Source: Methanoculleus caldifontis (GTDB lineage: Archaea > Halobacteriota > Methanomicrobia > Methanomicrobiales > Methanoculleaceae). From it: a DNA stretch of 64,000 nucleotides. The DNA lies in assembly GCF_032842345.1 (NCBI RefSeq), contig NZ_WBKO01000002.1, positions 454,208-518,207 on the forward strand, given 5' to 3'. The notes beneath the pieces were generated by a model. It was not told the origin of the DNA, did no database searches, and saw only the letters and a program-made list of their open reading frames with translations. The translations under genes and the position numbers were made by a program. Of the stretch, positions 8,819 to 52,345 are shown in pieces; the stretch's first letter is position 1, and each line of letters begins with the position of its first letter.

Positions 8819-9154
8819 TCCACCGATACCGGCCTCCCGCGAAGCGCTCCACTCAACCCGGGAGTCCCAACCAGACGAAGCGGGAGTACCGCGGGTGCGG
8901 GTCCGGACATGGGAGTGCCAGAGGTCTTCGAGCCGCGATGGTCTGTCAGGACCGGAGCGTGAGAAGCCATCAGGCTTCGAGCCACGAAGAGATCGGCTAA
9001 CAACCCAGTTCCTCTTCGCGGCTTCGCGGCTTCGCGGCTTCGCGTGAGACTATATCGTTACCCCTATTCCCGACGCACGCGAAGCCGCGAAAAACGCGAA
9101 GACAGGTATCCAGTTCCTCGCGTGACTTGATGGATCAAAGACGGCCGTCCGGGA
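8819..9154. repeat. Intergenic CGAAG-rich repeat, copy A
   Basis: No gene is supported here. At 9013-9048 the unit CTTCGCGG is iterated and ends in TTCGCGTGAG. About 30 bases later its complement CACGCGAAGCCGCGAAAAACGCGAAGA appears (9076-9102), so the two halves form a long imperfect palindrome. The flank at 8900-8990 contains a second family module (GGAGCGTGAGAAGCCATCAGGCTTCGA) that recurs at 52120-52155. The short open frames here are by-products of the repeat. Confidence 0.75.
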
Positions 9155-32499: not shown

Positions 32500-32935
32500 T
32501 GATGCGGCCTCACGCGAAGTGCAAGCGAAGCGAGCTCGAGCACCGTAGGAACGACGGGCCGCAGGGCCGGAGCGTGAACACCGAAGGTGTGAGCCGCGAA
32601 AGCCGCGACTTGAGACGGTTCGCAGAACCAGAGCTCGAGCACAGTCAGGTGCGAAGGGGAGTTGCAGACGCCTGTCCAGTCTTCGCGTTCTTCGCGGCTT
32701 CGCGTGAGATGTTGCGTTACCCCACTACCGGCTCACGCGAAGGCGCGAAGGGCCCGAGATTGAGGAGGCCGGAGATCTTTGAAGGGCGAGTGAAGCGAGC
32801 GTGAGCACTGTCAGGTGCGAAAGGGAGTTGCAGATACCTGTGCCAGTCTTCGCGTTCTTCGCGGCTTCGCGTGAGATTTTCAGTACAGGGGGGAAGTACA
32901 GTCTCACGCGAAGGCGCGAAGCCGCGAAGGAAAAC
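32500..32935. repeat. CGAAG-rich repeat, copy B, with internal duplication
   Basis: The 605-base gap between thiC and the next gene contains no credible gene. Two direct copies (about 32637-32710 and 32803-32877) share GAGCACxGTCAGGTGCGAA, GGGAGTTGCAGA and CAGTCTTCGCGTTCTTCGCGG, with a 166-base period, each ending in GGCTTCGCGTGAGAT. Inverted counterparts CTCACGCGAAGGCGCGAAG follow at about 32733 and 32904. The short open frames in both strands are read-throughs of these repeats. Confidence 0.75.
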
Positions 32936-39075: not shown

Positions 39076-39417
39076 ATGCCTGACCAGGAGGAAGAAGCAC
39101 TCAAGGTCATCCAGTCCCATCGCCAGGGAGTCCTCCAGAGCGAGCTCTGGAAACTTCTTGATATCGACAGCAGGAAGTGCTCCAGGATCGTGAAGCGGCT
39201 GCTGGATGCCGGGTTGATCGAGCGGCTCGAGTTCCGCAGCGACGGCATCAAGACCTACGTTCTCCGAGCAAAGAAGCAGGCGGTCGACCCCTGCGTCATC
39301 CTTGCCGGCGGGGAGATCCTCCCGTGTATCGGGTGCGATCAGGAGTGCACACCGGAAGAGTGCGCGCTCCTCCTTGACTGGATGTACCAACTTGCTCTTG
39401 AAGAGTATCAGGAGTAA
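39076..39417 (+). CDS. MarR/Lrp-like wHTH protein with cysteine-rich tail
   Basis: 113 residues. Winged helix at about 5-65 (VLQSELWKLLDIDSRKCSRIVKRLLDAGLIERLEF), followed by a short domain with four cysteines CIGCDQECTPEEC, likely a metal or Fe-S site. Probably a transcription regulator that senses redox or metal. Co-directional with the LSm gene and five bases apart. No target is evident. Confidence 0.75.
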   Translation: MPDQEEEALKVIQSHRQGVLQSELWKLLDIDSRKCSRIVKRLLDAGLIERLEFRSDGIKTYVLRAKKQAVDPCVILAGGEILPCIGCDQECTPEECALLLDWMYQLALEEYQE

Positions 39418-39532
39418 GGCATCCCATTTTTAAGAACCTGTGACCTTCGAGGATCACCTATCGGCAACTCCTGCCGGCTCGCCTCTCCCCGCACGGCGCA
39501 CCCCCGCGGTGACGCGGCCTTACAGATAGTAC

Positions 39533-39739
39533 GGCTCTGTTGAAACCCTCTCCCTGAGATCGAGCCCATTGCAGGATTATCCATACATCTTGACTCACGC
39601 GAAGCCGCGAAGAACGCGAAAGAGGCTGTCAACACCCATTTCAGGCTTCGCGCCTTCGCGGCTTCGCGTGAGGTCACACCAGTACCCTCTCCACGTAACT
39701 GAGTGTTCTCTAGAGGGTGTAGACCATTTCAACAGAGCC
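39533..39739. mobile_element. 207-bp MITE with 13-bp TIRs and 8-bp target duplication
   Basis: Left end GGCTCTGTTGAAA and right end TTTCAACAGAGCC are perfect inverted repeats of 13 bases. GATAGTAC occurs directly outside both ends (39525-39532 and 39740-39747), an exact 8-base target duplication. The interior has no transposase. The terminal sequence and 8-base duplication resemble IS6-type elements (GGxxCTGTTGxAAA), so it is most likely a non-autonomous derivative. A palindromic CGAAG repeat is nested inside (39595-39682). Confidence 0.85.
39595..39682. repeat. CGAAG-rich palindromic repeat, copy C (inside the MITE)
   Basis: TGACTCACGCGAAGCCGCGA at the left and CGGCTTCGCGTGAGGTCA at the right face each other, so the whole stretch can fold into a long hairpin with a loop of about 30 bases. 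It makes up nearly half of the 207-bp element. Confidence 0.75.
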
Positions 39740-39868
39740 GATAGTACAGATGCCGGAAGTCCTCGGAAGATCTTGCAAGAGCGACACCCGGCCGGTCGGG
39801 ACGGCTCTCCCCGAAGAGAGGAGCCTTCCATTCGCCGAACTCGTAAAAGAGGAGGGATATGACAGCCC

Positions 39869-40288
39869 TCAGGACGGGACCATCTCATCGAGGGCATTCT
39901 TCTTCCGGCAGACGGCGTCGATAACGCCGTGCTGCACGTTGTAGAAACTGTGCGGGACATCGATCTCGCACTCGAGGTCGATGACCGTCTCTTCGTCGCC
40001 CCCGGTGCAGAGGGTTACGGAGTCCCTCTGGAACGTGACGTACGGGGCACCCTGTGCGCGGGCATCCACCACCGCGGTGACATAAATGCAGTCGTCCCCT
40101 TCGACCACCTCGACGTCGGAGACCTCGTCCTCGTTATCCCCGGACGGGTCGGGGTATGCACCCTCAGGGGAGCCGCTGATGATGGTGAACCCGATGATCT
40201 TCGGGTCCTGGAGTGGCATCTCGCTCAAGATCCGCTCCATCAGCCGCGCGATATTCTTGAACATCTCGTCGTATGGATTATTCGCCAT
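39869..40288 (-). CDS. Hsp20-like protein paired with ArsR regulator
   Basis: 139 residues from the ATG at 40288, which overlaps the ArsR gene's end by 11 bases. It starts with MANNPYDEMFKNIARLMERIL, the same kind of amphipathic helix as the Hsp20 at 36612, followed by a GFTII segment parallel to GFKIV there. The second half (IYVTAVVDARAQGAPYVTFQRDSV) fits a divergent alpha-crystallin/CS sandwich. Probably a small chaperone variant. A longer frame to 40330 lacks an SD. Confidence 0.6.
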   Translation of the reverse strand: MANNPYDEMFKNIARLMERILSEMPLQDPKIIGFTIISGSPEGAYPDPSGDNEDEVSDVEVVEGDDCIYVTAVVDARAQGAPYVTFQRDSVTLCTGGDEETVIDLECEIDVPHSFYNVQHGVIDAVCRKKNALDEMVPS

Positions 40289-40904
40289 GTGTACCACGTA
40301 TCCGGTATCTGTCGTTGACTCGTTCGACAAACCCCATCTGCATGAGGCTGCCCAGTCTCTGTTTCAGCTCATCCGTGGACAGGCTGCTCACTTCCTCGAG
40401 TTCCACGATGGTCAGGTCGACGTGGGAGAGGGGGAGAAGGATGGCGTCCAGGTCCCTGTCGTCGACGGCGACGATCTCCCTCGTGCGCACGATCTCGTTG
40501 AATCTCGATTCGATCTCCCGCTCCAGTTGTTCGAGGTTCTCCAGAAGTTCTTCACGAGCCCGGACCATTCTTCCAAGCGCCGCGAGGTTCCTCGTGAATC
40601 GTGCTCTCTGGTCCCCCACAACGGAGGGGAGCGTAACCCCGTCCTGCTTCTGCAGGTTTACGATGACATTGATGTCATGGGAGAGGTAGTAATACTTTCG
40701 CCTGCGCTCGTCCTGGCAGGAGATGAGGAGTTCTTCGCGCTCCATCATCTGCAGATGTTCGATCACCGCCTTCGGACTGAGCACCAGGCGCTCGGAGATC
40801 TCGGTCACGAAACACGGCTTCTGCCTCAGCAGCTCTATTATTCGTCGCCTGTTCCGGTTTCCCAGGATATCAAGGAGACGGGAAACCTCATTGCCCTCAA
40901 GCAT
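40278..40904 (-). CDS. ArsR-family wHTH regulator
   Basis: 208 residues. Winged helix at about 10-75: RRRIIELLRQKPCFVTEISERLVLSPKAVIEHLQMMEREELL with a wing RRKYYYL. The rest is a long helix (FTRNLAALGRMVRAREELLENLEQLEREI) and a second winged-helix-like region (TDELKQRLGSLMQMGFVERVNDRYRIRG). It heads an operon with an Hsp20-like gene, as archaeal heat-shock regulators often do. A near-perfect inverted repeat overlaps its expected transcription start (40907-40923), indicating self-control. Confidence 0.75.
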   Translation of the reverse strand: MLEGNEVSRLLDILGNRNRRRIIELLRQKPCFVTEISERLVLSPKAVIEHLQMMEREELLISCQDERRRKYYYLSHDINVIVNLQKQDGVTLPSVVGDQRARFTRNLAALGRMVRAREELLENLEQLEREIESRFNEIVRTREIVAVDDRDLDAILLPLSHVDLTIVELEEVSSLSTDELKQRLGSLMQMGFVERVNDRYRIRGTHGE

Positions 40905-48544: not shown

Positions 48545-48642
48545 TGCCCTCATTCGCGCATTTCGCGGCTTCGCGGCTTCGCGTGAGGCCTCTCTACTGC
48601 CGATACCGATAACTCACGCGAAGCCGCGAAGCCCGCGAAGGG
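48545..48642. repeat. CGAAG-rich palindromic repeat, copy D
   Basis: TTTCGCGGCTTCGCGGCTTCGCGTGAGG and, after about 30 bases, CTCACGCGAAGCCGCGAAGCCCGCGAAGG face each other. The whole 391-base gap (48382-48772) contains no gene; a TATA-like CATACTTTTATTAG is at about 48422-48435. Confidence 0.75.
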
Positions 48643-52054: not shown

Positions 52055-52345
52055 GTCTCATGCGAAGTGCGAGCATAGCGAGCGTGAGCACGGAAGGTGC
52101 GAGCCACGAGGCTCCATCAGAAGCGGAGTGAGAGAAGCCGTCAGGCTTCGAAAAGGAGTTACACACTCATCTACCATTCTTCGCGGCTTCGCACCTTCGC
52201 GTGAGGCTGTAGCACTGCTCATAAATGACCATCTCACGCGAAGAAATGACCATCTCACGCGAAGCCGCGAAGAATGCGAATTTTACAGAGTTGTTAATGC
52301 TCCTCTTCGCGGCCTTCGCGCCTTCGCGTGATGCAACGCCGTATG
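52055..52345. repeat. CGAAG-rich repeat, copy E, with 21-base tandem duplication
   Basis: The largest copy. Modules GAGCGTGAGCACGGAAGGTG and AGAAGCCGTCAGGCTTCG (52077-52155), then CTTCGCGGCTTCGCACCTTCG, then a tandem copy of AAATGACCATCTCACGCGAAG (52223-52243 and 52244-52264), then CCGCGAAGAATGCGAA, and finally CTTCGCGGCCTTCGCGCCTTCGCGTGA. No gene in 51967-52407 is supported. Confidence 0.75.

Follow-up and report, generated by a model that had tools for sequence, protein, structure and literature searches.

A probable IS5-family MITE with a nested palindromic core in Methanoculleus caldifontis

The locus described here raises the question of what kind of element lies between two convergent reading frames of Methanoculleus caldifontis, and which enzyme could have moved it. 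The window, as the whole analysed stretch of 64,000 nucleotides is called here, contains exactly two occurrences of GGCTCTGTTGAAA, which are mutually inverted and correspond to the two ends of the element (13/13 match). The length of 207 bp and the perfect 13-base inverted ends that had been proposed from the sequence alone (hereafter, the original prediction) were confirmed at the positions given in Table 1. The 8-base direct flanks are equally exact, with GATAGTAC found on both sides (8/8 match). When random pairs of 8-mers were drawn from the flanks of seven copies (200,000 draws), the chance of an 8/8 identity was 3e-5. Both convergent ORFs around the element are conserved in relatives.

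Table 1. Features of the element, of its nested core and of its surroundings in the window, and positions of the two-armed copies in the own genome
Feature	Position	Strand	Basis or remark
MITE, subfamily A, 207 bp	39533..39739	+	sequence, copy matches
Left target-site duplication GATAGTAC	39525..39532	.	
Right target-site duplication GATAGTAC	39740..39747	.	
Left terminal inverted repeat GGCTCTGTTGAAA	39533..39545	+	
Right terminal inverted repeat	39727..39739	-	
Left arm	39533..39593	+	conserved across 27 aligned MITE copies (own genome and relatives)
Right arm	39676..39739	+	conserved across the same 27 aligned MITE copies
Palindromic core	39594..39672	+	member of a genus repeat family also found without MITE arms
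Core stem, left iterons CTCACGCGAAGCCGCGAAG	39594..39612	+	
Core stem, right iterons	39654..39672	-	19-bp complement of the left iterons
Upstream neighbour, winged-helix protein	39076..39417	+	converges on the MITE
Downstream neighbour, conserved ORF, no Pfam match	39869..40330	-	converges on the MITE
Two-armed copies, own genome (1)	C2:493740 (window), C3:53962, C1:255683, C2:112576, C2:412688		
Two-armed copies, own genome (2)	C1:341728, C1:932810, C2:192896, C1:1571739		

The own genome comprises 2,617,102 bases in 4 contigs, a small part of which was unreadable. A genome-wide search for further copies of the ends, suggested in the original prediction, was successful: GGCTCTGTTGAAA gave 13 exact matches, all of them at ends of copies of the element, and the reversed-pattern control gave none. 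Nine dispersed copies carry both arms; one more copy is degraded, and two fragments of the right arm were found besides. The window copy is 99% identical to the 207-bp copies located on C3 and C1. The duplication was 8/8 in seven of the nine copies, 7/8 in one and 6/8 in another. The seven exact duplications consist of 68% A+T, compared with 40% in the flanks, and a proportion of 5e-5 of 20,000 resamplings was as high.

The family extends beyond this species. With the 207-bp query, matches were obtained in 27/35 genomes of the genus at E<=0.001, many of them covering the core alone. Eighteen loci of relatives, picked among the matches listed for this query and including orthologous pairs, were read. 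In the search for their duplications, shifts of up to 3-4 bases were allowed, and only duplications at the called ends were counted: these were 8/8 in eight loci and 7/8 in three, the other seven showing no duplication of at least 7/8. At two loci (L076 and L077) an 8/8 duplication appeared only after a shift into the element. The end pattern was found in 17 stretches, in Methanoculleus strains or in archaeal MAGs titled Methanoculleus or Euryarchaeota. A viral source was rejected, as viral contigs gave no confirmed transposase match and no match to the MITE end pattern.

The joined flanks of six of the ten insertions were searched in 35 genomes, the own genome included, and single matches across the junction were recorded. 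The joined sites omitted were three with other cores in the flanks and C1:932810, which was set aside for the sake of a short, clean query. The C12 site of G011, which is occupied in G011, G012 and G007, was matched in this way in 23/35 genomes, the own genome among them. The C1 site of G011 was empty in 2/35 (G008, 95%, and weakly G004, 72%), and the G002 site in 4/35 (G018, G012, G007 and G032). As for the own copies, C1:341728 was empty in 2/35 (G017, 82%, and weakly G027, 69%) and C2:112576 in 1/35 (G011, 73%, the alignment having gaps close to the junction). For the C8 site of G011, none of the matches in the 35 genomes extended far into both flanks. Nine alignments covering the other three sites from relatives, and a single one for either own copy, were examined base by base; the duplication region itself displayed some base differences in the G011 C1 and G002 comparisons. 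An uninterrupted empty site is present in relatives for four sister insertions, while the fifth has gaps.

At the locus of the window copy, 10/13 ortholog spacers were without the element, yet they were too diverged for a base-exact comparison. For this reason no base-exact site with a single GATAGTAC was recovered. The empty site that the original prediction had expected in relatives was found for sister copies, as single junction matches, but not for the window copy. Its broader claim, an insertion accompanied by target duplication, is supported by the multicopy state, the duplications and the empty sites seen in relatives for sister copies. Of the remaining spacers, those of G025 and G026 carry sequence like the MITE or an IS end, and in L202 the gene is bordered by different sequence. 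The orthologous spacer of G025 (L211) contains MITE-like sequence and that of G026 (L219) IS-end-like sequence, which suggests that the spacer may be a repeated landing place.

With regard to the source transposon, the IS5-type domain PF13737 was matched in 13/35 genomes, and these loci were rejected, since none of the 20 fetched had MITE ends on both sides. Among 30 fetched loci with PF01609, two (L120 and L122) did have MITE ends on both sides. L122 holds a complete autonomous IS of a sister species (L122:1444-2453, 1,010 bp), flanked on both sides by CAAGCATC, an 8-bp duplication. Its ends are GGCTCTGTTGAAA and GGCTCTGTTGAAT, the MITE end agreeing with one in 13/13 positions and with the other in 12/13. 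The first 19 nt of the left end of the MITE are identical to the transposase-upstream end of the sister-species IS5-family element; past the 13-bp end and the six further bases on one side, no clear likeness was observed between the arms of the MITE and the IS. The transposase of L122 has 288 aa and scored 231 bits with NF033579 (IS5; cut-off 140) and 78 bits with PF01609 (cut-off 23). A second IS with MITE ends on both sides was found in G034, where it is split over two contigs with CAATGTAC at both flanks: it stops at a contig end, and the far end with the same CAATGTAC lies on another G034 contig. No ORF of at least 150 aa with closed ends was listed for this IS, although a separate transposase search gave an open frame of 309 aa.

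Relatives of the transposase were detected at E<=0.001 in 10/35 genomes, several of them weak; they were strong in G001, G034 and G026, and short end fragments were present in G007. Clear IS fragments and MITE copies occurred together in G007 only, among the genomes with copies read. In the readable part of the own genome, which is all but a small portion, no relative was found at this threshold, so that the pairing rests on the ends, the duplication length and the presence of the IS in a sister species. In G007, G026 and G034 many contigs break off within the IS5-family element, which points to several copies per genome. On plasmids, 204 records with transposase relatives were obtained, all below 60% identity, the best (54.8%) being from Methanomethylovorans hollandica.

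The sister-species IS, a member of the IS5 family (NF033579, transpos_IS5_2), matches the MITE in its ends and in its 8-bp duplication. The MITE ends look IS903-like (GGCTTTGTTGAA), and the ISH1 group has an 8-bp duplication. In contrast to the IS5 family and the MITEs derived from it, no transposase was detected here, the arms past the ends are not clearly common to MITE and IS, and the core is an unrelated palindrome. Taking together the ends, the 8-bp duplication, the dispersed copies, the empty sites of sister insertions and the autonomous IS of the sister species, the element is very probably a non-autonomous IS5-family derivative, that is, a MITE. It leaves no room for a transposase, which agrees with the earlier proposal that it has none of its own and was moved in trans. 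The MITE would be "orphaned", moved by an IS5-family enzyme that is now absent or undetected in the own genome; IS5-derived MITEs usually share a genome with their cognate transposase, but an orphaned one need not do so. Such a transposase would have bound the 13-bp ends and inserted the MITE at AT-rich spots, and the three 207-bp copies, 99% alike, may be the mark of a recent burst.

The element also encloses a palindromic core with a stem of 19 bp, a feature absent from the original prediction. Just after position 39612, other copies of the own genome have modules of 38, 40 and 46 bp. The own genome has 153 exact matches to an 18-base core motif and G001 has 199, counts in which one palindrome may yield several matches; the reversed motif gave none. 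In a sample of the phylum the motif was found in 13/294 genomes: 10/12 of the same genus, 2/6 of one other genus within the order, and a single genome elsewhere. The window itself contains further palindromes of CGCGAAG iterons in four places (9014-9092, 32690-32929, 48561-48631 and 52179-52328), and no MITE arms were detected at the five window core sites tested. When 25 core loci were tested with arm profiles, a subset that includes three from one array and two adjacent ones at 32690-32929, 18 showed no MITE arm (E<=10). The other seven were three known MITE copies, a core standing alone next to a MITE, a MITE in degraded form and two loci with the right arm only. In L219, L211 and L092, units of 38-46 bp made of two small hairpins (such as GCGAGC...GCGAGC and GCACC...GGTGC) were also noticed; these stretches look like a second mosaic repeat joining cores.

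Among the nine own-genome copies, the core is shortest in the window copy and in two others. Within subfamily A, in which left arms differ at 0-2 of 60 positions, the core contains either no extra module, a single one of 38 bp or a pair of 38+40 bp. Between subfamilies B and A the arms differ at 11-13 of 60 and 15-16 of 64 positions, and the modules by 0 or 1 (38-bp) and by 0 (40-bp); the ninth copy, C1:1571739, was entered for the modules and left out of the arm comparison. The two MITE subfamilies resemble each other more closely in the core modules than in the arms. An inverted core middle was found in one B copy and in the three G011 copies read. Orthologous insertions differ as well. In one of them, G011 differs from G012/G007 by 83 bp (in the C12-site comparison, the left half was compared for G012); in another, the difference between G011 and G007 is a single 8-bp iteron. 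These two genomes also show an 83-bp difference in a core array that lies outside MITEs, and a pair of orthologous copies, one in G002 and one in G003, lacks nearly the whole core.

Gene conversion and slippage would account for these core patterns with no new mechanism. The core would be a resident palindromic mosaic repeat that was in the MITE before the species split, with recombination between its short repeats, or slippage among them during replication, changing its size and orientation in place. Alternatively, the core might be a mobile element itself, which inserts into MITEs as well as other sites and is carried along by IS5 transposition. This idea draws on the high motif counts against a control of zero, the 18/25 core loci lacking detected arms, the near-identity of modules across subfamilies with diverged arms, and the 83-bp differences both in an orthologous MITE insertion and in the array outside MITEs. 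However, when five lone-core sites were aligned, none gave a clean empty site with a duplication. Likewise, no Y1 tyrosine transposase was found in the seven genomes with at least 20 motif matches (G000, G001, G003, G006, G007, G011 and G025). Within the genus this transposase occurs in 7/35 genomes, none of them among those seven, and G032, with many core matches, had one weak Y1 match below the cut-off. Conversion and slippage would explain the patterns too, and an independently mobile core is considered a doubtful proposition, at perhaps one chance in several. Its fuller form is slightly less likely still: a mobile or self-copying Methanoculleus mosaic, spread by no known transposase, which uses IS5-type MITEs as vehicles and is overwritten faster than the MITE evolves.

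The nested core can be compared with three described systems. According to the part of PMC4596501 that deals with it, the BrickBuilt MITE of Porphyromonas gingivalis has a core formed by a 23-nt tandem minisatellite. An internal repetitive core is common to both; the present one differs from what is described there in that its 8-bp iterons form a palindrome, its modules measure 38-46 bp and the repeat is also common outside the MITE. REP and BIME sequences with RAYT, in the passages of PMC3733652 concerning them, are high-copy palindromes in mosaic arrays, like the core, whereas the window core, as read in the sequence, has no GTAG tag at its ends, and the seven motif-richest genomes are without a Y1 transposase. 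QMITE2 of Coxiella burnetii is presented in the relevant portion of PMC10969869 as giving rise to truncated REP-like copies by end loss; here, in contrast to that account, 18/25 tested core loci bear no trace of MITE arms. In a literature search covering titles and abstract openings, no description of this MITE or core was found.

The original prediction had attributed the element to IS6-type transposition and had proposed a check for a matching IS6-family transposase. The 8-bp duplication and the GG...CTGTT ends are compatible with an IS6-family MITE, as far as the section of PMC7986276 on such features goes. Nevertheless, the IS6-type transposase domain PF13610 gave no match in the own genome and was present in just 1/35 genomes of the genus, while 5/14 control genomes were positive, and the same ends with the same duplication length are carried by an IS5-family element. 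The attribution to IS6 was abandoned as very improbable.

That the element is simply a regulatory or terminator hairpin, and not a transposon, would suit its position between convergent ORFs and its folding as single-stranded DNA, far stronger than that of 200 shuffles (z -8.75) and helped by the internal palindrome, but as a sole explanation it is the least credible of all in view of the duplications, the dispersed near-identical copies, the empty sites and the zero Rfam matches up to E 1. The MITE may act secondarily as a terminator.

Apart from its nested core, which is unusual, the probable IS5-family derivative described here is a new MITE family of an ordinary kind. It provides an archaeal MITE family tied to a specific IS5-type source, in which fresh copies are kept in the genome though the enzyme now goes undetected there. 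Since whole modules distinguish orthologous insertions, gain, loss and flipping of the modules can be dated against the arms. The nested core is in this sense a natural experiment on the origin and change of archaeal palindromic mosaic repeats.
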